Assembly: GCF_001306415.1 (NCBI RefSeq)
Contig: NZ_LDJX01000009.1
Location: 1-64,000, forward strand
Source: Croceitalea dokdonensis DOKDO 023
GTDB lineage: Bacteria; Bacteroidota; Bacteroidia; Flavobacteriales; Flavobacteriaceae
Reading direction: 5' to 3'
Length of the DNA stretch: 64,000 nucleotides
A program made the translations under genes and the position numbers. Position 1 is the first letter of the stretch; each line of letters opens with the position of its first letter. Shown piece after piece: positions 42,236 to 57,392 of this stretch. The notes under the pieces were generated by a model. It had not been told where the DNA came from, searched no databases, and saw only the letters and a program-made list of their open reading frames with translations.

Positions 42236-44686
42236 CTACAATTTTTTAGCGTTTTTTACTTTTTGTTTTGTGATGGCCAAATCAATAACCTCGCTCATAT
42301 CGCTGACATAATGGAATACAAGGCCTTTTAGATAATCTGCCTTGATTTCCTGAATGTCCTTAAGATTCTCTTTACAAAGGATGATTTCCTTGATTTTGGC
42401 ACGTTTTGCCGCAAGAATTTTTTCCTTGACACCGCCAACTGGAAGCACTTTGCCACGTAAGGTGATTTCCCCTGTCATAGCCACGCTCTTTTTTACCTTT
42501 CTTTGGGTAAAGAGGGATACCAGCGAGGTCAGCATGGTTATCCCTGCACTGGGGCCATCTTTAGGCGTTGCCCCCTCTGGTACATGGATATGTACATTGT
42601 ACTTCTCAAAAACCTCTGGGTTAATGTTGAACAAATCTGCATTGGATTTTATGTACTCCATGGCAATGGTTGCGGACTCTTTCATCACCTTGCCCAAATT
42701 CCCCGTGATATTTAGGCTTCCCTTGCCTTTTGATAATATGGATTCTATAAATAGGATATCACCGCCAACACTGGTCCAGGCCAATCCCGTGACCACCCCC
42801 GCAACATCATTGTTCTCATATTTGTCACGTTCCATTCTTGCAGGTCCAAGGACTTTTTCCACATGGTCATTGGTCACCTTAATGTCATACGACTCCTCCA
42901 TTGCAATATTCTTCGCAGCATAACGTACCATTTTGGCAATCTGCTTTTCCAGTCCACGTACACCGGATTCCCGTGTGTAACCCTCTACTATTTTCTCCAA
43001 TTGGAGTTTTCCAATTTTAAGATCCTTAGCGGTAAGGCCATGCTCTGTTAATTGCTTGGGCAAAAGGTGTTTTTTGGCAATTTCAACCTTTTCCTCTATG
43101 GTATAGCCAGTTACGTTAATAATTTCCATACGGTCCCGAAGCGCAGGTTGTATGGCTCCAAGATTATTGGCCGTGGCTATGAACATGACCTTCGAAAGGT
43201 CATAGCCCATTTCCAGGAAATTATCATAGAACTCACTATTTTGTTCTGGATCCAAAACCTCTAGCATGGCAGAAGAGGGATCACCCTGATGGCTATTGGA
43301 GAGTTTGTCTATTTCATCCAGAATAAAAACAGGGTTAGATGTCCCAGCCTTTTTCAGGCTTTGGATAATTCGCCCAGGCATGGCGCCAATGTAGGTTTTT
43401 CTATGCCCCCTTATTTCGGCCTCATCTCGCAACCCTCCCAATGAAATCCTTACATATTCGCGCCCCAAGGCCTCTGCAACAGATTTGCCCAATGAGGTTT
43501 TACCAACCCCTGGAGGTCCGTACAGACACAAAATGGGGGACTTCATATCATTGCGCAATTTTAGAACTGCCAAATATTCAATAATTCGTCTTTTTACCTC
43601 CTCTAAACCATAATGGTCACGGTCCAAAATGCGCTGTGCCCTTTTTAAATCAAACTTATCCTTGGAAAACAACTCCCATGGCAATTCCAAAAATAGGTCC
43701 AGATAATTACGCTGAATGGAGTATTCTGCCACCTGCGGGTTCATGCGCTGCATTTTGGCCAATTCTTTTTCAAAATGTTCCCTTACTTTTTTGGACCATT
43801 TTTTCTTTTTGGCCTTCACCCGCATTTCATCCACTTCTTCTTCATAGGACAGGCCGCCCAGCTCCTCTTGTATGGTCTTCATTTGCTGGTGAAGAAAATA
43901 CTCCCGTTGCTGCTGGTCCATATCTGAACGAACCTTGGATTGGATATCATTTTTTAGCTCCAACTTTTGGAGTTCTAAATTCATGTATTTTAAAGTGGCC
44001 AAGGCACGTTCCTGCAAATCTGGAACTTCCAATAAATGTTGTTTTTCTGTCATCCCCAAGTTTAGGTTGGATGATACGAAATTGATTAAAAACGAATTGC
44101 TTTGGATATTTTTAATGGCGAAGGTGGCCTCCGTGGGAATATTTGGATTGTCTTTTATGATTTTATAGGCCAACTCTTTGATGCTGTCTATGATGGCCAA
44201 AAATTCTTCATCATCCTTATCAGGTCGTTTTTCCTCTGCCTCCCTTATGGTAGCCGTCATATAGGGTTCCTCTGTGAGTACCTCTGCAACTTCAAATCTT
44301 TTTTTCCCTTGGATAATAACGGTGGTATTCCCATCTGGCATCTGCAATACCCTAAGAATTCTCGCCACGGTTCCCGTGGTATGGATGTCTTTAACACGGG
44401 GATTCTCTATCTCTTCATCCTTTTGGGAGACTACGCCAATGGTCTTATTGCCATTGTTGGCATCCTTTATAAGGTTAATGGATTTATCCCTCCCAGCGGT
44501 AATAGGTATGACCACCCCTGGAAATAAAACCGTATTTCTTAAGGGCAAAATCGGGATGGTCTCCGGTAAGCTTTCCTTGTTCATCTCTTCCTCATCCTCC
44601 GGTGTTAGCAATGGAATCAATTCCGCATCTTCATCAATTCCCTGTAAGGACATATTGTCAATATTTCCAAATTTTAAACTTCCCAT
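42236..44686 (-). CDS. lon: ATP-dependent protease Lon
   Basis: An 816-residue cytosolic AAA+ serine protease. The N-terminal LON domain spans about 40-240 ([16 protein letters not shown]). A coiled region follows to about 350, with a lysine-rich stretch. The ATPase has Walker [11 protein letters not shown] and Walker [11 protein letters not shown]. The protease domain has the catalytic serine in PKDGPSAG and the lysine in [13 protein letters not shown]. Full length for the family. A 7-bp inverted repeat lies 28 bp upstream of the ATG. Confidence 0.97.
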
Positions 44687-44713
44687 ATTTTTATTATTCG
44701 GTCATTCTGTCAT

Positions 44714-44733
44714 TTACGGACACACATCCGTAA
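44714..44733. promoter_or_regulatory. Inverted repeat in the lon upstream region
   Basis: TTACGGA, six bases, TCCGTAA is a perfect dyad 28-47 bp before the lon ATG. It could be an operator or a leader hairpin. No TAnnTTTG element was found next to it. The regulator is unknown. Confidence 0.4.
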
Positions 44734-44910
44734 GAATCAATTTTCACTTTAGCACCCAGTAAAACCGTCTAAACAAGCTAAAACAGCTACACTCTTACCC
44801 TGGTTGCGTTCCCATAGTGCAATAGCTGTGCCACGCCATGGATTAAATAAAAGAAGAAAAGTGTAACAAATTGTAATTTGGGTCATCTATTCCCTAAACC
44901 AAACAACTTT

Positions 44911-45468
44911 TTGAGCCAAAAAAGTGAACATACAGAATCCCTAGTGGAGGCATGCTTACAAGGAAAACCAAGTGCACAATTGGCATTGTACAATCAATAT
45001 TACAAGGCCATGTACAATACTGCATTAAGAATTGTAAAGCATACCGCAGAGGCCGAGGATATTATGCAAGAATCATTTTTAAATGCATTTACAAAACTGC
45101 ACACCTTCAAAGGAGAGGTTTCCTTTGGGGCATGGTTAAAAAAAATAGTCATCAACAACAGCATTTACCACTATAGAAAACAGCAGAAAAACAGTGCAGT
45201 TGCCATTGAAGATGTTGTATACAAGGTCAAGGACAATGACGGAATTGGGCTAGAAGACCATGGTTTTACAGAACTGAAGGCTCAAAAAGTGATGGATACC
45301 ATGAATAGTTTAAAAGACAATTACAGAATTTCTTTGACCTTACATTTAATAGAAGGGTATGATTATGAGGAAATTGGACAAATTATGGATATAAGTTATG
45401 CCAACTGTAGAACGATGATCTCTAGGGCAAAGACGAGTCTAAGAAAAAAATTAATCAACGTATTGTGA
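44911..45468 (+). CDS. ECF-type RNA polymerase sigma factor
   Basis: About 185 residues of sigma-70 ECF type. Region 2 includes YKAMYNTALRIVKHTAEAEDIMQESFLNAF, split here as YKAMYNTALR and EAEDIMQESF. Region 4 contains YDYEEIGQIMDISYANCRTM as the helix-turn-helix. There is no in-frame ATG near the start. TTG at 44911 or TTG at 44878 must be used, and 44911 is preferred because a -7-like TAATTTG lies at about 44873-44880. The TGATG overlap with the next gene, which has a membrane segment, indicates a sigma/anti-sigma pair. Confidence 0.88.
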   Translation: MSQKSEHTESLVEACLQGKPSAQLALYNQYYKAMYNTALRIVKHTAEAEDIMQESFLNAFTKLHTFKGEVSFGAWLKKIVINNSIYHYRKQQKNSAVAIEDVVYKVKDNDGIGLEDHGFTELKAQKVMDTMNSLKDNYRISLTLHLIEGYDYEEIGQIMDISYANCRTMISRAKTSLRKKLINVL

Positions 45469-46031
45469 TGAAGCAAAAGGATACCATAACAACACTTTTT
45501 GAGAGGCTTAAGGGCGAATTTGACCTGGGGCATCCAGCCGATGGCCATCAACAACGCTTCTTAGAAAAGCTGAACAAGTCCGCAGGTACAGTGGCTTTGG
45601 GTAAAAAAAACAAAAGCTGGTGGAAACCGCTTACCGTAGCGGCAAGTATAGTAGTAATGGCCGTTTTGGGCTTTACATTTATAGCTATACCTACCAACCG
45701 CGAGCAACGTATGGTAGATATATCACCTGAAGCTTCAAAAACACAGTTTTATTTTGCGGGCCTTATTGAGGAACAAGTACAATTGTTGAAGAATGAAAAG
45801 TCTCCAGAAACTGAAAAATTGGTGCTCGATGCGCTCAACCAATTAGGACAATTAAAAAAGGATTATGAAAAGTTAGAAAAAGATTTGATTGGCGGTGGAG
45901 ACAGTAAACTTATTCTAAATGCCATGATCATCAATTACCAAACAAGAATTGATCTTTTACAGGAGGTGTTGCAAACCATAGACAGAATAAAAAATTATAA
46001 AAAGAAAAACAATGAGAATGATATTATCTAA
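45468..46031 (+). CDS. Membrane anti-sigma factor candidate
   Basis: A 187-residue protein. The cytosolic N-terminus (about 1-48) has the short FERLKGEFD...GHQQRFLEKL pattern. One membrane segment lies at about 52-72 (LTVAASIVVMAVLGFTFIA). The periplasmic part is helical and coiled-coil-like (EKSPETEKLVLDALNQLGQL). It lacks a zinc HxxxCxxC motif. ATG 45468 overlaps the sigma stop by one base, so coupling is strong. Its 3' end overlaps the next gene by 20 bp. Anti-sigma function is inferred from position and topology. Confidence 0.75.
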   Translation: MKQKDTITTLFERLKGEFDLGHPADGHQQRFLEKLNKSAGTVALGKKNKSWWKPLTVAASIVVMAVLGFTFIAIPTNREQRMVDISPEASKTQFYFAGLIEEQVQLLKNEKSPETEKLVLDALNQLGQLKKDYEKLEKDLIGGGDSKLILNAMIINYQTRIDLLQEVLQTIDRIKNYKKKNNENDII

Positions 46032-47112
46032 AAGCATTACCCTATGCCTCACTTTAATGACCATGGTGGCTTCTGCCATGCCCAATGAAGGAGAATTTAA
46101 AGGAAAACATACCAAAGAGAAAACAATTAAGAAGGAATTTAACAGCTCCGCGACAGGACTGTTGAAAGTAAAAAACAGTTATGGTAATTTGAACATCACC
46201 TCTTGGAACCAAGATAAAATATCCATAGAAGTACATATTAAAGCAAACGGAAACAATGAAGACAAGGTAATTGATCGCCTATCCGAAATTGATGTAGATT
46301 TTGAGAATAGCGCCACTATGGTCTCGGCCATAACCAGATTTGGGCAACGCAACAGAAGTTGGAACTGGGGATGGGGCAAAAACAACAATGTAAACGTCCA
46401 AGTAAACTATACCATTAAACTACCTATAAAAGGCAGTGTAGATTTAAGTAATGATTATGGCAGTATTTTTTTGGACCGAATAGACGGACACGCCAAAATA
46501 AGTTGTGACTATGGAAAAATGGATATTGGAGAGCTTCGCGGACGTAACAATGAACTGCGTTTTGACTATACTTCGCGCTCTACATTTGACTATATTGAAA
46601 GTGCCAGCATCATAGCAGACTATTCCAGTTTCACCATAGAAAAATCAGGAGACCTAAAAGTAACTGCAGATTATAGCAATGGAACAGTTAAGGAAATGGC
46701 AGACCTCAGCTTTACATCGGATTACGGGTCCATGACCATTGAAAGTGTCCAAAACGTATCTGGCAATGGGGACTATTTTGGTCTAAAATTGGGAAAGGTT
46801 TATGGCGATATAAGCCTTACGGCGGATTATGGTTCCATAAAAATTGCTGAGCTTACGGAACAGGCGGGTGATGTAAGCATAAGATCAGATTACACGGGCA
46901 TCCGGATTGGTTACCAAAGCAACCACAATTTTGATTTCGAAATTACAACGGAATATGCCGGGGTAAAAGGAAAAGAAGAGTTTACAGTTAATATCAGTAA
47001 AGAAAAGTCAGGAGATAAGTACTACAAAGGATTCTACGGGAAAGAGGGTTCTGGAAACAGCATTACCATTACAAGCGAGTACGGCGGAATTACATTTGAA
47101 CGCGTTGAATAG
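46012..47112 (+). CDS. Exported beta-helix protein with DYG repeats (DUF4097-like)
   Basis: A 366-residue exported protein. Residues 1-22 are a signal peptide ending SAMP. The mature part (from about 40) begins LLKVKNSYGNLNITSW, typical of DUF4097-like right-handed beta-helices. A motif of acidic residue-Tyr-small residue (NDYGSI, CDYGKM, ADYSSF, SDYGSM, ADYGSI, TEYAGV, SEYGGI and others) recurs about twelve times at roughly 20-residue steps. It is cotranscribed with the sigma factor pair and the GIN-domain protein, and is a likely target or signal of the envelope response. Confidence 0.85.
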   Translation: MRMILSKSITLCLTLMTMVASAMPNEGEFKGKHTKEKTIKKEFNSSATGLLKVKNSYGNLNITSWNQDKISIEVHIKANGNNEDKVIDRLSEIDVDFENSATMVSAITRFGQRNRSWNWGWGKNNNVNVQVNYTIKLPIKGSVDLSNDYGSIFLDRIDGHAKISCDYGKMDIGELRGRNNELRFDYTSRSTFDYIESASIIADYSSFTIEKSGDLKVTADYSNGTVKEMADLSFTSDYGSMTIESVQNVSGNGDYFGLKLGKVYGDISLTADYGSIKIAELTEQAGDVSIRSDYTGIRIGYQSNHNFDFEITTEYAGVKGKEEFTVNISKEKSGDKYYKGFYGKEGSGNSITITSEYGGITFERVE

Positions 47113-47191
47113 TAATGCATGTCCGCCTGAAACGCAAAACTACACCCATGCTTTCTATTGCAAATTAATAATAAACTTTAATCTAAAAAAA

Positions 47192-47926
47192 ATGAACATT
47201 ATGAGAACAAAACTAACGATTACGATAGCCCTCTTATTTTTGGTAGCTACCAATGCACAATGGGGCAAGCGTATTAAAGGAAATGGCAAAACGGTTACCA
47301 TAGAACGTACCGTGGGGGAATATGATGCTATAGCTGTCTCCGGATGGTTTGATGTTGAATTGGTTTCTGGACCAGAGGGCGACATTAGCATCAAAGGGGA
47401 AGAAAACTTGCTGGAATATATTAAAACCGAAGTAAAAGATGGCAAATTGACCATTAAAACCTCCAAGGGTGTAAATTTGAAGCCCTCCAATTGGAATTCA
47501 GGAATTTACGTGACCGTACCCATTGAATCTGTGCGTATGGTTTCCCTCTCTGGCTCTGGTGATGTGACCACCAATACCGTTATTAAAGCAAACAATTTTG
47601 AAACCAGTATTTCTGGCTCTGGGGATATATCCCTAGCCATTGAGGCCACTAATGTAGCGGCGTCCCTATCTGGCTCAGGTGACATTAATCTTTCAGGCAC
47701 AGCAGTTAATTTTGACGTATCTGTCTCTGGTTCTGGCGACATCAATGCCTATGCATTGGAAGCGGAAAATGTAAACGCCCAGGTTTCTGGCTCCGCCGAT
47801 ATTAAGGTAACGGCCAAAGACATGCTTAAGGCGCGGGTTTCCGGTTCTGGGGATATCACCTATAAAGGCTCCCCAAGAAAAGTAGATTCCAAAACCGCAG
47901 GATCTGGGGATATAGAGGCCTATTAA
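47192..47926 (+). CDS. Head GIN domain protein (DUF2807)
   Basis: A 244-residue exported protein. The signal peptide is at 1-22 (MNIMRTKLTITIALLFL). The GIN domain opens GEYDAIAVSGWFDVELVSG. The second half is a ladder of seven SGSGD(I/V)-type turns at about 20-residue steps. The ATG at 47192 is preferred over the open frame from 47096 because of the signal peptide and the A-rich leader. Such proteins follow ECF sigma genes in many flavobacteria. The function is unknown; a surface beta-solenoid is expected. Confidence 0.88.
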   Translation: MNIMRTKLTITIALLFLVATNAQWGKRIKGNGKTVTIERTVGEYDAIAVSGWFDVELVSGPEGDISIKGEENLLEYIKTEVKDGKLTIKTSKGVNLKPSNWNSGIYVTVPIESVRMVSLSGSGDVTTNTVIKANNFETSISGSGDISLAIEATNVAASLSGSGDINLSGTAVNFDVSVSGSGDINAYALEAENVNAQVSGSADIKVTAKDMLKARVSGSGDITYKGSPRKVDSKTAGSGDIEAY

Positions 47927-47944
47927 AAATGATGCCTATTCCAA

Positions 47945-47977
47945 TAAAAAACAGCTCCTAGTTGGAGCTGTTTTTTA
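47945..47977. terminator. Bidirectional terminator between convergent genes
   Basis: ACAGCTCC / GGAGCTGT with a 5-base loop, A6 on one side and T6 on the other. It can end both the ECF operon (+) and the galactose oxidase gene (-). Confidence 0.88.
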
Positions 47978-50602
47978 TTATTCCAAAATCAAGGATGCTG
48001 TGTGCACCTTACCATCCATCGTTTCTATATGCACACTATATAAACCAGAACTAAGATGTTGGGCGTCCACGGTGTGCAGCGTGCCATGGGATTTACCAAT
48101 GTCTTCCTGATATACTTTACTGCCCACAGCATTAAATATATTCAAGCTAAATTTTTGATTGGAAAGTGGTTCTAAATAAATTTCAAATATACCGTTACTT
48201 GGGTTTGGCAATATGGTTATGGCGTCGCTAGGCAATGGAATGCCATTTTCCATAAGTTTAGCTTGCAGGCCAATACCTTGAACGTTGATATCCAGTTCTT
48301 GCTCACATCCTTCGGCATCTACATACCTATAGGTACCCTTCTTCTCCGGAGTTACGGTTCCTAAAAAGTAGCCATCTACGGAGTTCCCTGCCAATGCTGT
48401 TCCATTAGGACCACTAATGGAGTAATTGGTGGGTGGCCAAATGGCAAGCCACATCACATCTCCCGTTTCCACGGTAACTGGTTCCTTGCCCAAAAACCAC
48501 TCTCCGTTTATACTGTAAGAGGGTAGGGAACCACAGGCATCCCCCTGAACGGTAATCTGTAGGGTACGGGTACAAGTATTACCAATACTAAAAGTGTATA
48601 AACCAGATTGTTTGGGAGTTACAAATCCCAGCGTGTAACCATTTTGGGAGTTTCCAGGAACCAGACCATTTGGACCCGTAACGGAAAACGCATCAGGAAC
48701 TGGAAACATACTCATCCAAATCTCATCCCCTGCATTAACGGTAATCCCTTCTGCCCCAAAACTCCATATCCCATTGACGGAGTAGGTATGGAAATTTGAA
48801 CATTCCCCGCTAGGCTCCACGTTAATTTCCAATGTTTGTACGCAACCGTCACCCGTTCTATAGGTGTACAATCCGGCTTCATCCAAGGAAATTTCCCCAA
48901 GGGTATAGCCTATTTCGGAGTTTCCCTGAACCAATGTACCATCTGGGGCAATAACCTCATAAAATGAAGGGAGCGGAAACATGCTCATCCACATCACGTC
49001 TCCTTCGTTGACCGTAATTTCATCGGCACCTGACTCCCAATTTCCGTTAATGGAATAGTCATGAACAAATGCACAATTTACTTTTTCTTTGACCTGAACG
49101 GACTCTGCTACACTTGGAACCCCATTGGCATCCATAGCAAACAACATATAATACCCTGGCGGCATAATTTCCGCTTTTGGAATATTTAATTGATATTCAC
49201 CATCCACTACAGTAAAAGGTACAGGAATACGGCGTTGCTCGTTGTTGGTGCTATGCGTGGCGGAGGACATCCGCACAAAGGAAAAGGCCTCCACATTATT
49301 GGAAGCGTTTACGGTAAAACGCTCTTCATAAAAGGCTACCTCAGGTGCAAGCAATTCTGGGCGTTGGGCTAAACTGCCATTAGCATCAAATAAGTAAGGA
49401 GGACTGTATATCTCAGCATTTAAGTGATTATCGCAACTTCCACATAGTCCACCACCACCAACAAAAACCCTGGCATCGTTCATTAAAATGGCAACGCTAT
49501 GATAGGTTCTGGGGACCTGCATGCCTGCCACCGTCCTCCATTGGTTGGTTTCAGGATCAAATAATTCCGCATTTAACCTTGCGCCAACATCTGTAAATAC
49601 CCTAGCCCTATCCAAACCTCCAGTGACCAAGACCGTTCCGTCCGGTAGCACGGTGCTATTGTGCATGGTGCGGGAAAATGTTAAATTATTGGCTGTTTTG
49701 GTCACCTTTAAATCGGTTTCACTGGTAATGTCAATGACATAGGAACTCGCTTTTGCTGCATCGCCAGAGGCATAGGATCGTGCTCCCCCAACTGTCAACA
49801 ATTTTCCCGTATCAAACATGACCGATGTCCCTTTCATGGAATAATCATCATCACCCCTTTTTCCAGCACTGGTCCATGATCCGTTACCCGTAGTGTCCAA
49901 CCAATGCATCTCCTCACTGGGCCCGGCATGAAATACCTTCCCGTTGGGGGCTGTCCAAAGCCAAGCATGATTGTCCAATCTGTATACCCCTCGGTTTTCC
50001 AGCCTGGCATCGTTCTGGTTCCATAAAATATCGCTTCTTATCCCTGGGAGAATGGTCCAACCATTTTCTGGGGTCCAATACTCCGCTACCTTTTCCCCGT
50101 TTGGTCCAAGACCGCCGCTCCATGAACCCCCAAAAGTTAGGGCTGCGCCGTTGGCCAAAGTGACGTTAGCTTGGTAACCGCGACCAATGTTCATATTGGC
50201 CTCTGGAAGCCAAGTATCGTTTCGGTAATCATAAATAGTGGTTTTAGGATTGGAAGATCCACCACTGACCAGTAGCCTGCCATCTGGTAAATTGTTAATT
50301 CCAGGACAGAACATATCATGTGTGGTGTTGGTCTGCTGCAATCCAAGGGGAGTCCCCTGGGCACCCATAAAGGGATTGAACAGTTCGTAATACGTAAAAC
50401 CATCCGCCCCACCAAAATTATCCCTAAACTTAGATGACCATACGATTAAATTACCATCCGGAAGATTGGCTACGGAAACCGGTACAAGGTTAAAAGGTAT
50501 GGGATCACTCCAAGACCCTATTTCATTAGCGGATTGGGAATTTGAACTAAAATGGCTAAAAAAGACGGCCGTTAATGTAAAAATAAAAGGGTGAATTTTC
50601 AT
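47978..50602 (-). CDS. Galactose-oxidase-type copper radical oxidase with T9SS sorting domain
   Basis: An 874-residue exported protein. The signal peptide is at 1-23. A seven-blade kelch-type propeller spans about 30-415, and the early-set domain (DUF1929) about 415-515. The galactose oxidase active site is complete: C99 (DMFCPG), Y143 (RGYQ), W161 (GGSWSGG), R311, Y367-H368 (RTYHS) and H450 (ATHSTN). The C-Y-W spacing (44, 18) equals the fungal enzyme (C228, Y272, W290), so a Cys-Tyr cofactor and copper site are expected, oxidising a primary alcohol to aldehyde with H2O2. Three Ig-like repeats of about 85 residues follow (about 525-790), then a T9SS tail (ITILPNPSNGIFEIY...). The ATG at 50602 is chosen for its signal peptide. 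The frame is open to 50638. Confidence 0.93.
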   Translation of the reverse strand: MKIHPFIFTLTAVFFSHFSSNSQSANEIGSWSDPIPFNLVPVSVANLPDGNLIVWSSKFRDNFGGADGFTYYELFNPFMGAQGTPLGLQQTNTTHDMFCPGINNLPDGRLLVSGGSSNPKTTIYDYRNDTWLPEANMNIGRGYQANVTLANGAALTFGGSWSGGLGPNGEKVAEYWTPENGWTILPGIRSDILWNQNDARLENRGVYRLDNHAWLWTAPNGKVFHAGPSEEMHWLDTTGNGSWTSAGKRGDDDYSMKGTSVMFDTGKLLTVGGARSYASGDAAKASSYVIDITSETDLKVTKTANNLTFSRTMHNSTVLPDGTVLVTGGLDRARVFTDVGARLNAELFDPETNQWRTVAGMQVPRTYHSVAILMNDARVFVGGGGLCGSCDNHLNAEIYSPPYLFDANGSLAQRPELLAPEVAFYEERFTVNASNNVEAFSFVRMSSATHSTNNEQRRIPVPFTVVDGEYQLNIPKAEIMPPGYYMLFAMDANGVPSVAESVQVKEKVNCAFVHDYSINGNWESGADEITVNEGDVMWMSMFPLPSFYEVIAPDGTLVQGNSEIGYTLGEISLDEAGLYTYRTGDGCVQTLEINVEPSGECSNFHTYSVNGIWSFGAEGITVNAGDEIWMSMFPVPDAFSVTGPNGLVPGNSQNGYTLGFVTPKQSGLYTFSIGNTCTRTLQITVQGDACGSLPSYSINGEWFLGKEPVTVETGDVMWLAIWPPTNYSISGPNGTALAGNSVDGYFLGTVTPEKKGTYRYVDAEGCEQELDINVQGIGLQAKLMENGIPLPSDAITILPNPSNGIFEIYLEPLSNQKFSLNIFNAVGSKVYQEDIGKSHGTLHTVDAQHLSSGLYSVHIETMDGKVHTASLILE

Positions 50603-50696
50603 CGTATTCTCTAGTGTTAGCTTCCACAAAGAAAACACCTCAGCAGTTTTAACCGCTTAATGTCGATGAAGTGAACACAATAACCGACCAAGCTAT

Positions 50697-50727
50697 CAAA
50701 CGTAATATAAAGATGAATGGGATACAA
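50697..50727 (-). promoter_or_regulatory. Promoter of the galactose oxidase gene
   Basis: The minus strand reads TTG, 20 bases, TACGTTTG, a full Bacteroidota promoter match, about 95 bp before the ATG at 50602. Confidence 0.6.
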
Positions 50728-50758
50728 GCAATGATATACAAGCCATGAAAGGAACAAC

Positions 50759-52090
50759 TTACATTTGGGTAGGCTGCTTTGGCACACGTGTCAATAAATA
50801 CGCCCCAACCAAAAAGAATAGTCCCAAAAAAATGGTGCTGCTGCGCATACTTCCGGTGAGCTGCGCAATAAGTCCATACATTAGCGTACCAATGACGATA
50901 CCTATTTTTTCGGATACATCATAAAAGCTAAAAAAAGATGTGGTGTCCGTAGTGTCCGGTAAAAATTTGGAGTAAGTAGAGCGGGATAATGCCTGTATGC
51001 CCCCCATGACCAATCCAACCAAACCGGCAGCGATATAAAAATCGGTCGGTGTGATGACAAAGTATGCATAAATACATAACAACACCCAAAAGACGTTTAC
51101 AACAATCAATGTTTTAATGTTCCCAAAGCGTTCTGACGCCTTGGCGGTCACCGTGGCCCCTAATATGGCAACCACTTGTATGACCAAAATACTGACGATG
51201 AGGCCGGTGGTCCGCTCATTATCCGTTCCCCAATCTATTTCTTCCTCACCAAAATAAGTGGCAATCAACATAATGGTCTGTACAGCCATACTGTAGACAA
51301 AAAAAGCACCCAAATACCGTTTGAGCTGAATTTGGTTCCCGAGTTCTTTCCACACCCCCTGCAATTCTTTAAAACCGTTAAGTACAACGTTTTTTCGTTC
51401 TCCTTTACGCTTGTTGCCTTGGGGTAAATGTGCAAAGGTGTATTGGCTAAAAACCACCCACCAAATGCCAACGGTAACAAAGGAATACTTCATGGCTTTA
51501 ATTTCTGCGGCCTCTCCCCCGGCGTCAGTTATTCCAAATACCTCTGGTTTCATGACCATGGCCAAATTAAAAACCAATAAGATTACACTCCCAATATAGC
51601 CTAAAGAAAATCCTTTTGCACTTACAGCATCTTGCTGTTCTGGGTACGCTATATCTGGCAAATAGGAGTTATTGATGGCGAAGCTTACCCAAAAACCTAC
51701 CAGTCCAAAAAAATAACACGCCAGACCCAAGTAAATATGTTCCAGTGAAAACCAATAAAGTCCAATGCATGAGACTGCCCCTAGATAGCAGAAAAATTTT
51801 AAAAAAATCTTTTTATTGCCCAAATAATCGGCCACACCAGAAACCAAAGGGGTAACAACGGCAATACATACAAATGCGGCCGAGGTGGTATAACTGATCA
51901 AAGGTGCCCTGGCTATTTCGCCTCCAAAAACAGACACTTTTTCAATACCCGCCACCCTAAACAAAGCCCCATAAAAAATTGGGAACACGGCAGATGAAAT
52001 TACCAGGCTGTACACAGAATTTGCCCAATCATAAAAGGCCCAGGCGTTTAATAATTTCTTGCTTCCCTTAAGGGCGATTGTCTTTACCAT
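50759..52090 (-). CDS. MFS transporter, UMF1 (Atg22-like) family
   Basis: A 443-residue inner-membrane protein with 11-12 hydrophobic segments. The N-terminus KKLLNAWAFYDWANSVYSLV and the GLVMGGIQALSRSTYSKFLP motif are typical of the UMF1/Atg22-like MFS branch. The substrate is not known. It is isolated from its neighbours by a terminator upstream (52096-52131), so it should have its own promoter close to 52090. No consensus element was identified there. Confidence 0.88.
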   Translation of the reverse strand: MVKTIALKGSKKLLNAWAFYDWANSVYSLVISSAVFPIFYGALFRVAGIEKVSVFGGEIARAPLISYTTSAAFVCIAVVTPLVSGVADYLGNKKIFLKFFCYLGAVSCIGLYWFSLEHIYLGLACYFFGLVGFWVSFAINNSYLPDIAYPEQQDAVSAKGFSLGYIGSVILLVFNLAMVMKPEVFGITDAGGEAAEIKAMKYSFVTVGIWWVVFSQYTFAHLPQGNKRKGERKNVVLNGFKELQGVWKELGNQIQLKRYLGAFFVYSMAVQTIMLIATYFGEEEIDWGTDNERTTGLIVSILVIQVVAILGATVTAKASERFGNIKTLIVVNVFWVLLCIYAYFVITPTDFYIAAGLVGLVMGGIQALSRSTYSKFLPDTTDTTSFFSFYDVSEKIGIVIGTLMYGLIAQLTGSMRSSTIFLGLFFLVGAYLLTRVPKQPTQM

Positions 52091-52095
52091 GTCCT

Positions 52096-52131
52096 AAAAA
52101 TAGAAAAGCTGCCTTGATAAGCGCAGCTTTT
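52096..52131 (-). terminator. Rho-independent terminator after the M48 gene
   Basis: A perfect 9-bp stem AAAAGCTGC / GCAGCTTTT with a 10-base loop, 23 bp after the protease stop, followed on the minus strand by a T-rich run. Confidence 0.75.
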
Positions 52132-52153
52132 CCCAATTTTAATGCTTGTATCG

Positions 52154-52963
52154 CTATTTAAAACTTGTTACCCCAAATTTGGCGGCTTCCTCTTTGGCCA
52201 AAGGCGCCCATTTGGTCAAGTTACTTATTCTAGTATCATTGGATGGGTGTGTGCTCATAAACTCTGGTGGTGCCTGACCTCCACTTTTGGCTTTCATACG
52301 TCTCCACAAATTGGCCGCCTCATCCGGATTGTATCCGGCAATAGCCATAATTTGTAATCCTATGCGGTCAGCTTCGGTTTCATGACTCCTACTAAAAGGC
52401 AGCATAACCCCTAATTGAGAACCAACGCCATAGGCCTGATTGAACATATTTCGGGTCCTGTCGTCTTGTATTGCTATATTTCCCGCAACGGCACCCAATT
52501 GCTGCAAGGTCCCAGCACTCATCCGTTGTGCACCATGGTCTGCCAACGCATGGGCCACCTCATGCCCCATGACCACGGCAACGCCAGTCTCATCTTGGCA
52601 AATAGGTAATATGCCTGTGTAAAAGACAATTTTACCACCCGGCATGCACCAAGCGTTCACAGTTTCATCATTAACCAATTTATACTCCCATTGGTAGTCC
52701 TTTAGATAGCCTGGAAAGCCGTTTGCATTTAACCAGGTTTCAGCCGCGGTTGCAATACGTTGCCCAACATTGGTTATCATACGTGCCTCATCTGTATCCG
52801 TAACTACATTGTTTTCATTCAAAAACTGATTGTACTGGGCAAAGGCGGTAGGGAACAATTGGGAATTCCCATAAAAGTTCAACATTTTTTTTCCAGTAAA
52901 GGGATTTGTCTTACAAGCGGCAATCGATAAAAAAAAGGCCACCGTTAAAATTATTCTTCTCAT
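52154..52963 (-). CDS. M48 family metalloprotease lipoprotein
   Basis: A 269-residue predicted lipoprotein. The signal ends with the IAAC lipobox (C17). HEVAH at 134-138 is the zinc motif, and a third ligand lies in HETEADRIG. The domain fits the M48C/Oma1-BepA-like peptidases that act on envelope proteins in quality control. Length is typical for a TPR-less form. It follows the GH31 gene by 37 bp on the same strand and ends at a terminator. Confidence 0.92.
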   Translation of the reverse strand: MRRIILTVAFFLSIAACKTNPFTGKKMLNFYGNSQLFPTAFAQYNQFLNENNVVTDTDEARMITNVGQRIATAAETWLNANGFPGYLKDYQWEYKLVNDETVNAWCMPGGKIVFYTGILPICQDETGVAVVMGHEVAHALADHGAQRMSAGTLQQLGAVAGNIAIQDDRTRNMFNQAYGVGSQLGVMLPFSRSHETEADRIGLQIMAIAGYNPDEAANLWRRMKAKSGGQAPPEFMSTHPSNDTRISNLTKWAPLAKEEAAKFGVTSFK

Positions 52964-53000
52964 TTTTTTTAGTGTTTAGTACTTCAAAATACGAAAAATA

Positions 53001-55400
53001 TTATTCTCCAAAAATATGTATCTCCGTAAAGTCCTTGCTCACTGTGATACTGTTCTTACCATCAAACTGCACATGATCTAAATCAACAAATTCATTATTG
53101 AATTCTATCTTGTTGATTTTAAACGGAAGACCATGAAATTGCATTTTGATGTTTTCATAGGGAGTTGTATAAGATCCATCCTTAAACTGTTGCATAATGA
53201 GCTCGGTATCCTTACCTCTTAAGCGAAACCTGCGCAGGCTAAACCTTCCTTTTTTATAGTCATACCCTTCTTGTTGGTCTTCGTAGACCACGGAAGTTTC
53301 CACACCTTCCTTAAAGTATACATCAATTTTGAGTTCTTCAATCTTTTTCTCCCCAACATACTGTTGGACGGGGTACTTAGGAATCATGGCACCCTCTTTT
53401 ACAAATAGCGGAATTTTATCAATATCTGCGGACACCCATTTTTCTATGCCACCATCTACAACTTCCTCCGTCCAATAGTTATACCATTTTCCCCTGGGAA
53501 TATACATACGCCTACCCTTAGCATTTGGCTCTTGAACCGGACACACCAAAATCTGTTCCCCAAATAAAAACTCATCTGTCCTAAAATGGGTCTGTGAATC
53601 TTCTTGGTCATAATATACCAAAGATTGTAACATGGGTAACCCGTCCTTGACATACCTGTAGAACATGGTATACAAATAGGGCAATAGCTGATATCTTAGT
53701 TCTATGTACTTTCTAACGATATTTGTGACTTCATCACCAAATGACCAAGGCTCCTGGTCACCGTGGTCACCACTGGAATGTACCCTACAGAACGGATGAA
53801 AAATCCCTAATTGAATCCAACGGGCAAACAATTCTCCATTGGGCTGTTCTGCAAACCCTCCAATATCCGACCCTACAAAAGAGTAGCCACTCATGCACAT
53901 ACGCTGCATTTGTACATTTGCAATCCAAAGATGCTCCCAAGTCGCTACGTTGTCACCTGTCCAAGTAGAGGCATACCGCTGGGTTCCGGAGTAGGCGGCC
54001 CTAGTTAGCACAAATGGACGTTTTGGAAAACTGAATTTTTTAATCCCATCATAGGTGGCGCGTACCATTTGCATCCCATAAATATTATGGGCCTTTCTAT
54101 GACTGCATGGATTGCCGTCATAATCATGCCTTACGTCCAAGTTGGCCGTTTTGGTGGGTACTTCCATAATGGCAGGTTCGTTCATATCGTTCCAAACACC
54201 GTGCACCCCCATTTCTGCAATCATTTCTTTGTAGAGCCCGCCCCACCATTCCCGTACCTCAGGATTGGTAAAATCCGGAAACTTACATTCTCCTGGCCAA
54301 ACCTTGCCCTTAAAATGGGGGCCATCTGCCCTTCTACAGAAATATCCCTTCTCCATGGCTTCCTGGTATACCCAATAATCCCTATCAATTTTAATTCCAG
54401 GGTCTATCATGGTTACGGTTTTAAACCCGTCCTCATAAAGCTCATCAATCATTTTCTTGGGGTCTGGAAAACGCCTATTGTTCCAAGTAAAACAACGAAA
54501 ACCTTCCATGTAGTCTATATCCAAGTAAATGGCGTCACATGGAATTTTGAGTTCCCTAAAGGTATTGGCGATCTTCTTCACCTTTTTTTCGGGATAGTAG
54601 CTCCATTTGGATTGATGAAAGCCCAATGCCCATAAGGGGGGAAGTTCTGGAACACCGGTAAGATTGGTGTATGCTTCGACCACCTGCGATATTTTTGGGC
54701 CGTAAAAGAAATAATAGTTCATTTCGCCCCCATCTGCCCAAAAACTCGTCACATTTCTTTTTTCATGGGCAAAATCAAAATACGTGCTAAAGGAATTATC
54801 AAAAAAGATACCATAGGCCATATCATTCTGTAGGCCGATATAAAAAGGAATTGACTTATACAGTGGTTCCTGGTCTTTACCGTAGGCATAAGAATCCGTA
54901 GCCCAATTGTTCACCCTTTTTCCCTTTAAGTTGGAGTGGGAAGATTTGTCCCCCATACCGTAGTAGCTCTCGCCAGATTGGGTAACCTTACTCATTTTTA
55001 CGATATTACCACCGTAATCAAAATTCTCCTCCCAATGAAAACCGGATTCGTCCTCAATAATCACCATATCCTCTAGAGTGGTGATATATGTTTTTAAATT
55101 CACTTTGCTGATATGCACCCTTACCTTAGAGGTCTGCACAACATATTTGGACTTCTCATCCAACACTTCCAGTTCATTGTAACCCGTATTGACGTCCTCA
55201 CTAATGGCATATGAAAAATCTGGTTCAAAAGCATGTTCCGTAGCGTACCTAAACCTTATGGCGCTATCCCTTAAAACGGTAATCTGAAGAATTACCCCAT
55301 TTTGGGTGGTAAAATATATCTTGTCATTATCCTGCTTAAATTCTATGATTTGGTTAGGATACTGGTTACCGTATTTTGATAGTTCTGTATTGGTGATCAT
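53001..55400 (-). CDS. GH31 alpha-glucosidase
   Basis: A 799-residue glycoside hydrolase releasing alpha-linked glucose (or related sugars) from non-reducing ends. The N-terminal beta-sandwich spans about 1-235. The catalytic barrel has IPCDAIYLDIDYMEG, the nucleophile in GVWNDMNEPA, the acid/base Asp in TWTGDN, and SDIGGF. C-terminal beta domains follow. No signal peptide is seen, so it acts in the cytosol. It lies 96 bp after glgB, suggesting glycogen or maltooligosaccharide turnover. Substrate linkage cannot be read from the sequence. Confidence 0.94.
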   Translation of the reverse strand: MITNTELSKYGNQYPNQIIEFKQDNDKIYFTTQNGVILQITVLRDSAIRFRYATEHAFEPDFSYAISEDVNTGYNELEVLDEKSKYVVQTSKVRVHISKVNLKTYITTLEDMVIIEDESGFHWEENFDYGGNIVKMSKVTQSGESYYGMGDKSSHSNLKGKRVNNWATDSYAYGKDQEPLYKSIPFYIGLQNDMAYGIFFDNSFSTYFDFAHEKRNVTSFWADGGEMNYYFFYGPKISQVVEAYTNLTGVPELPPLWALGFHQSKWSYYPEKKVKKIANTFRELKIPCDAIYLDIDYMEGFRCFTWNNRRFPDPKKMIDELYEDGFKTVTMIDPGIKIDRDYWVYQEAMEKGYFCRRADGPHFKGKVWPGECKFPDFTNPEVREWWGGLYKEMIAEMGVHGVWNDMNEPAIMEVPTKTANLDVRHDYDGNPCSHRKAHNIYGMQMVRATYDGIKKFSFPKRPFVLTRAAYSGTQRYASTWTGDNVATWEHLWIANVQMQRMCMSGYSFVGSDIGGFAEQPNGELFARWIQLGIFHPFCRVHSSGDHGDQEPWSFGDEVTNIVRKYIELRYQLLPYLYTMFYRYVKDGLPMLQSLVYYDQEDSQTHFRTDEFLFGEQILVCPVQEPNAKGRRMYIPRGKWYNYWTEEVVDGGIEKWVSADIDKIPLFVKEGAMIPKYPVQQYVGEKKIEELKIDVYFKEGVETSVVYEDQQEGYDYKKGRFSLRRFRLRGKDTELIMQQFKDGSYTTPYENIKMQFHGLPFKINKIEFNNEFVDLDHVQFDGKNSITVSKDFTEIHIFGE

Positions 55401-55496
55401 AGCTGAAAATTTTGGTCAAACAAAAAAAGCATATTAAACCGAGACTAAAAAGCTTGGTACTGCATCAAAAGGAACTATAACGTTTTAGGCCCAATT

Positions 55497-57392
55497 TTAT
55501 TTATAAATAAGTACGGAAAGTGGTGGAATGGTGAGCTCAATGGACCGTTCCCTCCCGTTCCATGGCTTATCTGAAGGTTTTACCGTTTTTTTACCAATAC
55601 CACTACCGGCATATTTTTTGTCATCACTGTTAAAAATACACCTTAACTGTTTTGATGTTGGGACACCAATGCGATACTTTTCCCGAGGTACTGGGGTAAA
55701 ATTGCCGATAACGATAAGGTCATCCTTAGGGTCATTTCCTTTTCTAATGTAGGTCATCACGGAATTTTCATGGTCGTTGTAGGAAATCCACTCAAAACCT
55801 TCTGGACTAAATTGCTTTTGGTAGAGCGCCGGCTCTCCCTTATATATGGCATTTAAATCTTGGATGGTCTTCTGTATACCAGAGTGGAAATCATAGTTGG
55901 TTAAATGCCAATCCAGACTTTGTTCAAAGTTCCACTCTGACGTCTGCCCAAATTCCCCTCCCATAAAAACAAGGTTTGCTCCGGGATGTGTGAACATATA
56001 ACCAAATAGAACCCGCAAATTGGCAAAGCGCTGCCATTCATCACCCGGCATTCGGTATACCAGGGATTTTTTGCCATAGACTACTTCATCATGCGAAAAA
56101 GGCAGCATAAAGTTTTCAGTAAAGGCGTAGGTCATGCTAAAGGTAAGGTCGTTTTGATGGTGCTTACGGTAGATAGGTTCTTTTTTAAAGTATTCCAAGG
56201 TGTCATGCATCCATCCCATCATCCACTTCATCCCAAATCCGAGTCCTCCAAAATGTACGGGCTTAGAAACCCCTGTAAAGGCGGTAGATTCTTCGGCTAT
56301 GGTTTGTACGCCACTAAAACTGGCATACACCTCTTGGTTCATCTCCCTAATAAAGGACATGGCTTCCAAATTCTCATTATTTCCGTACATGTTGGGCTCC
56401 CATTCGCCATCTTCCCTGGAATAATCCAAATAAAGCATGGAAGCAACAGCATCTACCCGCAGACCATCTACGTGAAATTGGTCTAACCAAAAAATGGCAT
56501 TACTGATGAGAAATGCCCTGACCTCGTTCCTACCGTAATTAAAAATTAGGCTTTTCCAGTCTGGGTGATACCCCTTGCGCCTGTCCGGATGCTCATATAG
56601 ATGGGAGCCATCAAAATAACCAAGGCCATGGGCATCTTCTGGAAAGTGGGAAGGAACCCAATCCAAAATAATACCTATACCCGCCTGATGGAATTTATCT
56701 ACCAATAGCTTAAAATCCTCTGGTTTTCCAAATCTTGAAGTTGGGGCAAAATACCCCGTAAGTTGGTACCCCCAAGAAGGATCGTAGGGAAATTCCATTA
56801 TTGGCATTAATTCAATATGCGTAAAACCCATTTTTTTGACATAGGCCACTAAATCCTCCGCAAGTTCCGCGTAGGATAAAAATTCATTGGCCGCATTCCT
56901 TTTCCATGATCCAAGATGCACCTCATAAACGGAATAAGGTTGGTCCAAGGCGTTATGTTTCTCACGTGTTTCCATCCAATCCCTGTCCTTCCAATCATAG
57001 GCGGCCTCCCAAACCACAGAAGCGGTTTTAGGTGGATGTTCGCAATAGCGCGCAAATGGATCCGCCTTCTCCGTGACTATATCGTTGTTGTTGGAAACAA
57101 TTTTGTACTTATAAATTTCACCTTGCCCCACAGCAGGTATAAAACCTTCCCAGATTCCAGAACTGTCCCACCGTACGTTAAGTTTGTGGGCAATATCATC
57201 CCACCCATTAAAATTACCGACCACTGCAACAGATTTGGCCGTAGGTGCCCATACCGCAAAATAGGTGCCTGCTACACCATTGACCTCCGTTGGGTGGGAT
57301 CCCAACTTATCGTACAAACGAAAATGCTTTCCAGATTTGAATAGATTGATATCAAACTCTGAAAAAAAACTGTGCGGAATTACTGAAGACAT
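55497..57392 (-). CDS. glgB: 1,4-alpha-glucan branching enzyme (GH13)
   Basis: A 631-residue glycogen branching enzyme. CBM48 is at about 20-110 (YFAVWAPTAKSVAVVGNFNGW). The GH13 barrel has ILDWVPSHFPEDAHGL, the nucleophile in GLRVDAVASMLYLDY, the acid in IAEEST, and the transition-state Asp in FSHDEV. A C-terminal beta domain ends PPLSVLIYK. Length fits group-1 enzymes lacking a long N-terminal extension. GH31 lies downstream on the same strand. glgA, glgC and glgP are not in this window. Confidence 0.96.
   Translation of the reverse strand: MSSVIPHSFFSEFDINLFKSGKHFRLYDKLGSHPTEVNGVAGTYFAVWAPTAKSVAVVGNFNGWDDIAHKLNVRWDSSGIWEGFIPAVGQGEIYKYKIVSNNNDIVTEKADPFARYCEHPPKTASVVWEAAYDWKDRDWMETREKHNALDQPYSVYEVHLGSWKRNAANEFLSYAELAEDLVAYVKKMGFTHIELMPIMEFPYDPSWGYQLTGYFAPTSRFGKPEDFKLLVDKFHQAGIGIILDWVPSHFPEDAHGLGYFDGSHLYEHPDRRKGYHPDWKSLIFNYGRNEVRAFLISNAIFWLDQFHVDGLRVDAVASMLYLDYSREDGEWEPNMYGNNENLEAMSFIREMNQEVYASFSGVQTIAEESTAFTGVSKPVHFGGLGFGMKWMMGWMHDTLEYFKKEPIYRKHHQNDLTFSMTYAFTENFMLPFSHDEVVYGKKSLVYRMPGDEWQRFANLRVLFGYMFTHPGANLVFMGGEFGQTSEWNFEQSLDWHLTNYDFHSGIQKTIQDLNAIYKGEPALYQKQFSPEGFEWISYNDHENSVMTYIRKGNDPKDDLIVIGNFTPVPREKYRIGVPTSKQLRCIFNSDDKKYAGSGIGKKTVKPSDKPWNGRERSIELTIPPLSVLIYK

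Follow-up and report, generated by a model that had tools for sequence, protein, structure and literature searches.

Little is known of what galactose oxidases do in bacteria. GlxA, the bacterial relative studied best, helps to build its producer's own surface glycan, and copper uptake and a self-made Cys-Tyr cofactor are common knowledge for the family. That bacterial copper-radical oxidases serve their producers' own glycans is already a known idea, for which GlxA-CslA provides the precedent in the excerpts of PMC4736821 and PMC11022532 used here; the former excerpt also has GlxA acting together with a peroxidase. In Stigmatella, the gene of the copper-radical oxidase FbfB adjoins a glycosyltransferase gene (PMC3543389, excerpt). 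Subfamily 2 of the CAZy family AA5 is described for fungal sequences (PMC13094651).

The gene analysed here lies in 64,000 nucleotides of Croceitalea dokdonensis DOKDO 023 DNA (contig NZ_LDJX01000009.1), hereafter called the window. Its product is an enzyme of a known kind, and the new part is the genomic context of its clade. In open-licence PubMed Central, neither the type IX secretion (T9SS) form of galactose oxidases, nor their linkage to Wzc, nor their swap with glucose/sorbosone dehydrogenase-like (GSDH) proteins was found, and no papers were retrieved for galactose oxidase with type IX secretion, Wzc, Flavobacteriaceae or Flavobacteria exopolysaccharide, absences that carry little weight.

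The gene and its predicted product

The gene (Table 1) is a single open frame of 874 codons plus stop, free of internal stops, and the sequence-only reading had its limits, start and strand right. A coding artefact is excluded by this frame, and chance resemblance by the match score, the residue set and the tail. The protein has the AA5 domain order, a kelch propeller followed by a GO-like E-set (PF13964, 60 bits, above cut-off; PF09118, 66.8 bits, cut-off 25). Its best match among solved structures is "Galactose oxidase" 9g8h/9g43 (446 bits over residues 29-504, E 1.8e-132), the fungal enzymes scoring about 336 bits. Three Ig-like repeats of about 90 residues each come next, with 51% (second) and 44% (third) identity to the first. 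A lone repeat was modelled with a pLDDT of 89.6 and its Foldseek matches were Ig domains (NCAM2, E 9.4e-4; Aureispira GhpA fragments); on this model the repeats appear to be an ordinary spacer fold. A model of the full-length protein, built with a single homologue row, had a mean pLDDT of 48.7 and was set aside.

Table 1. Features of the oxidase gene and its surroundings (window coordinates)
Feature	Position	Strand	Basis
Galactose-oxidase-type gene, complete, 874 aa	47978..50602	-	ATG at 50602; ORF, Pfam and structure-database match
Sec-type signal peptide, residues 1-24	50531..50602	-	Short, basic N-terminus followed by a hydrophobic core, judged by eye
Catalytic module, residues 29-504 (kelch propeller and E-set), homologous to PDB 9g8h/fungal galactose oxidase	49091..50518	-	Match to solved structures
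GO-like_E_set domain, residues 414-504, contains His450 (=His581)	49091..49363	-	Pfam and alignment
Cys99 codon (=Cys228), predicted Cys-Tyr cofactor partner of Tyr143 (=Tyr272)	50306..50308	-	Alignment
Arg208 codon (=substrate Arg330)	49979..49981	-	Alignment
Ig-like repeat 1, residues 509-600	48803..49078	-	Repeat comparison and model/Foldseek
Ig-like repeat 2, residues 601-689	48536..48802	-	Repeat comparison and model/Foldseek
Ig-like repeat 3, residues 690-778	48269..48535	-	Repeat comparison and model/Foldseek
T9SS type-A sorting tail, residues 798-867 of 874	48002..48211	-	Pfam and TIGRFAM
Perfect 16-nt hairpin with T run between convergent genes	47943..47979	.	Sequence
Conserved neighbourhood: Lon (-), ECF sigma, anti-sigma-like, unnamed, DUF2807 (+), GalOx (-), Atg22-like MFS, M48, GH31, glycogen-branching-enzyme-like (-)	42236..57392	.	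Annotation and genome comparison

The G+C content of the gene is 0.453 against 0.424 for the window. At third positions it is 0.423, within the range of five neighbours (0.395-0.466), so that composition gives no sign of recent foreign origin. Flanking repeats that would mark a transposition were sought around the gene, and none was found. The hairpin between this gene and its convergent neighbour is likely, judging from its letters, to be a bidirectional terminator; that neighbour (47096-47926) encodes a DUF2807 protein with recurrent SGSGD motifs.

Active-site residues were mapped by a HMMER alignment with the fungal enzyme 6xlt, whose index minus one gives the usual numbering; the names of the fungal positions are in part the customary ones. 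W290, F194, Q326, Y329, R330, Q406 and F464 are given in Table 2 of PMC11267884 (excerpt). The Cys-Tyr pair, axial tyrosine and two histidine copper ligands that mark AA5 are all present (Cys228=C99, Tyr272=Y143, Tyr495=Y367, His496=H368, His581=H450), as are Trp290 (W161) and the substrate arginine Arg330 (R208), which mark AA5_2. Phe194 (F63), His334 (H212), Tyr405 (Y277) and Phe464 (F336) are further kept. The sequence-only reading had named C99/Y143, W161, Y367, H368 and H450, and the alignment bears out each of them; it was mistaken in taking R311 for the active-site arginine, since R311 falls on Arg439. Its statement that the spacing equals that of the fungal enzyme holds from Cys to Tyr (44) and from Tyr to Trp (18), and fails further on, where distances are off by 1-3 residues. 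Three positions are not conserved: Phe441, which is M313, and the two glutamines of the AA5_2 archetype, Gln326 (R205) and Gln406 (A278), whose columns lie near gaps, the second being one residue from one.

The same residues were followed through the family clade. Cys228, Tyr272, Trp290, Arg330 and His334 are kept in 24 of 24 catalytic modules, and Tyr405, Phe464, Tyr495, His496 and His581 in 23 of 23, the contig-cut module of genome G075 being without that half. Gln at 406 is found in no module of the clade, and Met occupies position 441 in 23/23. Four modules of other Bacteroidota (two of G403, one each of G332 and G316) have lost Trp290 in every case and Arg330 in three. An intact copper-radical oxidase with all first-shell residues is thus well supported as a prediction, and the window protein would presumably bind the metal and form the Cys-Tyr cofactor.

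The substrate is less firmly indicated. The sequence-only reading proposed galactose-rich glycans, which is plausible in that Arg330 and Phe464 are kept and is weakened by the loss of both glutamines. Galactose specificity is likely but not certain, because Gln326 and Gln406 are replaced by Arg and Ala. The protein could instead oxidize other primary alcohols or non-galactose sugar residues, as the three substitutions, that of Phe441 included, would allow. According to the excerpt of PMC11267884, loss of the two glutamines generally, not always, goes with lost galactose-oxidase activity; yet the same excerpt describes EfeGalOx, whose residues 326 and 406 are Arg and Asp, as a galactose oxidase. 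With Trp290, Arg330, Phe194 and Phe464 also kept here, a substrate other than galactose is a serious contender, though an unlikely one.

The prediction that type IX secretion exports the protein has good support, because the tail at the extreme C-terminus passes both cut-offs for type-A cargo (PF18962, 41.4 bits, cut-off 27; TIGR04183, 28.4 bits, cut-off 23) and because the genome encodes the T9SS component SprA (TIGR04189, contig C12, 2858 bits). A tail of the same type is present in 12 of the 12 homologues with an intact 3' end, 4 of which were checked by Pfam; the model used for the others was built from the four Pfam-confirmed tails, and on it the two weakest of the 12 homologues score 25 and 16 bits. 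The T9SS tail had been proposed by the sequence-only reading, as had an exported copper radical oxidase, which the active-site residues, the tail and SprA together support well. That the protein belongs to the copper-radical oxidases and is exported is very probable.

Two conserved sites in the family

Of 397 genomes of the family Flavobacteriaceae, 15 have full homologues (a per-genome tally has 16 rows when the weak G721 is included). The own genome has three galactose-oxidase-type genes and is the only one of the eight genomes of its genus with any. In a phylum-wide draw, 4 of 395 genomes had such a gene, the own genome included, and the other three were at 38-42% identity. When genome contigs were scanned with the window protein, the sole relative to emerge was one at 46% in a Mycetocola bin; in the 17 kb there, no gene besides the oxidase resembled any export or neighbour gene of the reference set.

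The 24 homologues of the 15 genomes fall into 13 genes within 10 kb of Wzc, 10 genes near lon, the window copy among them, and one (G044) at neither. Two proteins with an alignment gap at Cys228 (G721, 75.5 bits; G120, 46.5 bits) were excluded. So were the two N-terminal fragments of G104, at contig ends, although G104 enters the tally of Wzc loci given below. The Wzc-linked copy of G075, cut by a contig end, is among the 24 and was omitted from the tree, and a second stub of the same genome at the lon site, a frame of 50 aa, was left uncounted.

Site A is the gap between lon and a four-gene operon with a sigma factor or, at contig ends, a place next to either of the two; nine genomes have one oxidase gene each there. 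The window copy occupies the far end of the sigma operon instead, between the DUF2807 gene and the MFS gene, and the congeners G155, G154, G153 and G149 have no oxidase gene in either gap. In the tree, the window protein joins the proteins that G577, G011, G769, G763 and G613 have at site A (99/98), so it belongs to the site-A lineage despite its different exact place. Local relocation and separate insertion could each account for the switch of placement at the sigma operon (window 44686-50759; L076, L078, L079, L098-L101). Site B, next to Wzc, accounts for 13 genes from nine genomes. Each site label needs three changes along the tree, whereas shuffled labels need about 7.5.

The Wzc export locus

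The other two oxidase genes of the genome lie on contig C6 (15,207 bases; L004 1-15207), in the order GalOx (-), Wzc (-), Wza-type (-), CapD-like (-), Bac_transf (+), GalOx (+). Pfam gives GNVR/Wzz/AAA_31, Poly_export/SLBB, Polysacc_synt_2 and Bac_transf for the genes between them, and the loci of relatives additionally hold DegT aminotransferase and CpsB/CapC. Both oxidases run off the contig ends, with LamG and PKD domains before the cut, and the Wzc is the only one in the genome at E 1e-10. In genome G777, two tandem galactose-oxidase genes come after Wzc (L084 11064-19999).

Thirteen of the 24 oxidase genes lie at most 10 kb from Wzc against 0.29 expected, a figure derived from the numbers of Wzc genes and from genome sizes, which were rounded. 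Counted by genome the linkage is 9/15, and by genus 7/12. This type of Wzc (E 1e-200) occurs in 78 of 397 genomes, and all 15 with full homologues belong to these; the corresponding p of 7.8e-12 assumes independent genomes, and since related genomes are not independent and many loci are inherited, shared descent inflates such counts and the p-values overstate the association. Five of seven congeners carry this type of Wzc, all without an oxidase gene, so that the latter is an optional extra of Wzc-type genomes.

What else occupies the position beside Wzc was determined at 36 loci, from 35 of the 78 genomes plus the congener G154. The set takes in every genome with an oxidase gene and otherwise favours the best Wzc scores, and is not a random draw of the 78. 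The occupant was an oxidase at 10 loci (one of them the G104 fragment), a GSDH protein at 11, a giant kelch protein with Malectin/PKD domains at 4 (three named from Pfam, one from a 26% BLASTP match), and none of these at 11. Oxidase and GSDH protein were found together beside Wzc at 0 of the 36. The GSDH occupant is a T9SS-exported, glucose/sorbosone dehydrogenase-like protein with CBM6/malectin domains (for example L103 12417-18536). Four were called by Pfam, and seven from BLASTP matches of 56-72% with one of these; the Pfam-called four bring with them CBM6, Malectin and PKD domains as well as a T9SS tail, which scores below cut-off in three. Their best solved relative has H-S-G-G and R-N-P stretches in common with them, and in quinoprotein glucose dehydrogenase such stretches belong to the active site. 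Dehydrogenase activity of these proteins is suggested by the family name and this one alignment. A 1473-aa protein of G577 was rejected as a GSDH-like candidate, Pfam giving no GSDH on the part of the protein examined.

Another GSDH protein with a T9SS tail (1227 aa) is encoded on contig C2 of the own genome (L039 7777-17557), and contains one copy of a domain related to the Ig-like repeat of the window protein (32% over residues 512-599). Its gene ends a run of four glycosyltransferase genes and a carbamoyltransferase gene, beyond which are CusB/HlyD-like and AcrB-type efflux genes; gene sizes in L043 are similar.

Role of the enzyme

Since paralogues and relatives are tied to polysaccharide-export loci, a link missed by the sequence-only picture of an isolated surface enzyme, the producer's own polysaccharide suggests itself as the natural candidate substrate for the site-B paralogues. 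In the proposed mechanism, the protein would leave the cell via Sec and then type IX secretion, and would either stay attached to the cell surface or be set free from it. The propeller would bind copper through Tyr367, His368 and His450 together with the Cys99-Tyr143 cofactor, and would turn the C6 hydroxyl of galactose-type residues into an aldehyde while O2 is converted to H2O2. The main natural substrate of the clade would be the polysaccharide exported by the producer itself. Accessory lectin-like and Ig-like domains would retain the enzyme in the matrix, and the aldehydes could permit its cross-linking or the tuning of the surface matrix.

This reading is supported by the intact active site of the clade, the Wzc linkage, the swapping of slot occupants, the glycan-binding-type domains of relatives (LamG, F5/8C) and the GlxA-CslA precedent, and is weakened because the window copy is outside an export locus, being without polysaccharide-export genes beside it, because Gln326 and Gln406 are lost and because 11 of the 36 slots are empty. 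Moreover, adjacency is not function, and the host polysaccharide itself is a postulated one. That the protein is a primary-alcohol oxidase of the galactose-oxidase type acting mainly on its producer's own exported polysaccharide is a proposition as open to acceptance as to doubt, and the own-glycan role of the clade is about equally balanced. For the window copy itself, to which the role extends by kinship with the paralogues, it is a little more doubtful. A broader proposal is more tentative again: that the Bacteroidota practise oxidation of their own glycans, T9SS copper-radical oxidases, interchangeable in the slot with T9SS GSDH proteins, adding carbonyls that cross-link polysaccharide exported by Wzc/Wza, with the window gene as a dispersed member.

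A foraging enzyme acting on external algal or plant galactans and aiding their breakdown or uptake, which is close to what the sequence-only reading had in mind, would also be secreted by T9SS. Two lon-site relatives (G577, G613) carry four F5/8C "galactose-binding" domains each, and a GH31 gene lies two genes from the window copy. However, no SusC/SusD or galactanase is found among the nine scanned window neighbours, and the paralogues stand with export genes. The congeners without the oxidase keep the same neighbours (Lon, sigma factor, MFS, GH31, GlgB-like), and the neighbours are therefore uninformative on its role. A foraging role is improbable.

Alternatively, the peroxide itself could matter, as an antimicrobial, a signal or a supply for a surface peroxidase. 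The chemistry of the family and the partnership of GlxA with a peroxidase, cited above, are in favour of such a generator, but the scanned neighbours of the window copy and of both C6 copies include no peroxidase family, and the accessory domains point to glycan binding, which makes it still more improbable. A structural or adhesive propeller devoid of catalysis, suggested by the long adhesin-like architectures of relatives, is very hard to reconcile with catalytic residues that are invariant in the clade when the four outgroup modules, in the same alignment, lost Trp290.

With regard to the preferred reading, action on the producer's own glycan, the GSDH swap offers an independent handle. The clade might also be a possible supply of surface-exported galactose oxidases for glycan labelling.

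Comparison with known oxidases

The closest solved enzyme, 9g8h/9g43, presumably from Pseudoarthrobacter, has the same copper ligands, Cys-Tyr pair, Trp290 and Arg330 as the window protein. It differs in having Phe441 in place of Met, and its match to the window protein does not extend to the Ig-like repeats or the T9SS tail. The fungal galactose 6-oxidase (AA5_2; 1gof, 6xlt) shares Cys228, Tyr272, Trp290, Arg330, Phe194, Phe464, Tyr495, His496 and His581, whereas the window protein has Gln326, Gln406 and Phe441 changed, is without the N-terminal extra domain, has T9SS export and belongs to a separate clade (100/100). On the tree this clade is sister to 9g8h plus the fungal enzymes (branch 98/96), and outside their clade.

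The window protein scores 136.8 bits on the GlxA model (NF052501), for which the curated cut-off is 800, and its Trp stands, unlike that of GlxA, at the place of Trp290. The likeness to GlxA of Streptomyces, with CslA, is that of a copper-radical oxidase tied to the making of its producer's own surface glycan (PMC4736821, excerpt); in contrast to GlxA and FbfB, the partner of the paralogues here is a Wzc/Wza export locus, in a T9SS bacterium. If the linkage reflects function, a canonical galactose-oxidase-type enzyme would do the same kind of job as GlxA in an unrelated phylum and with another export machine.
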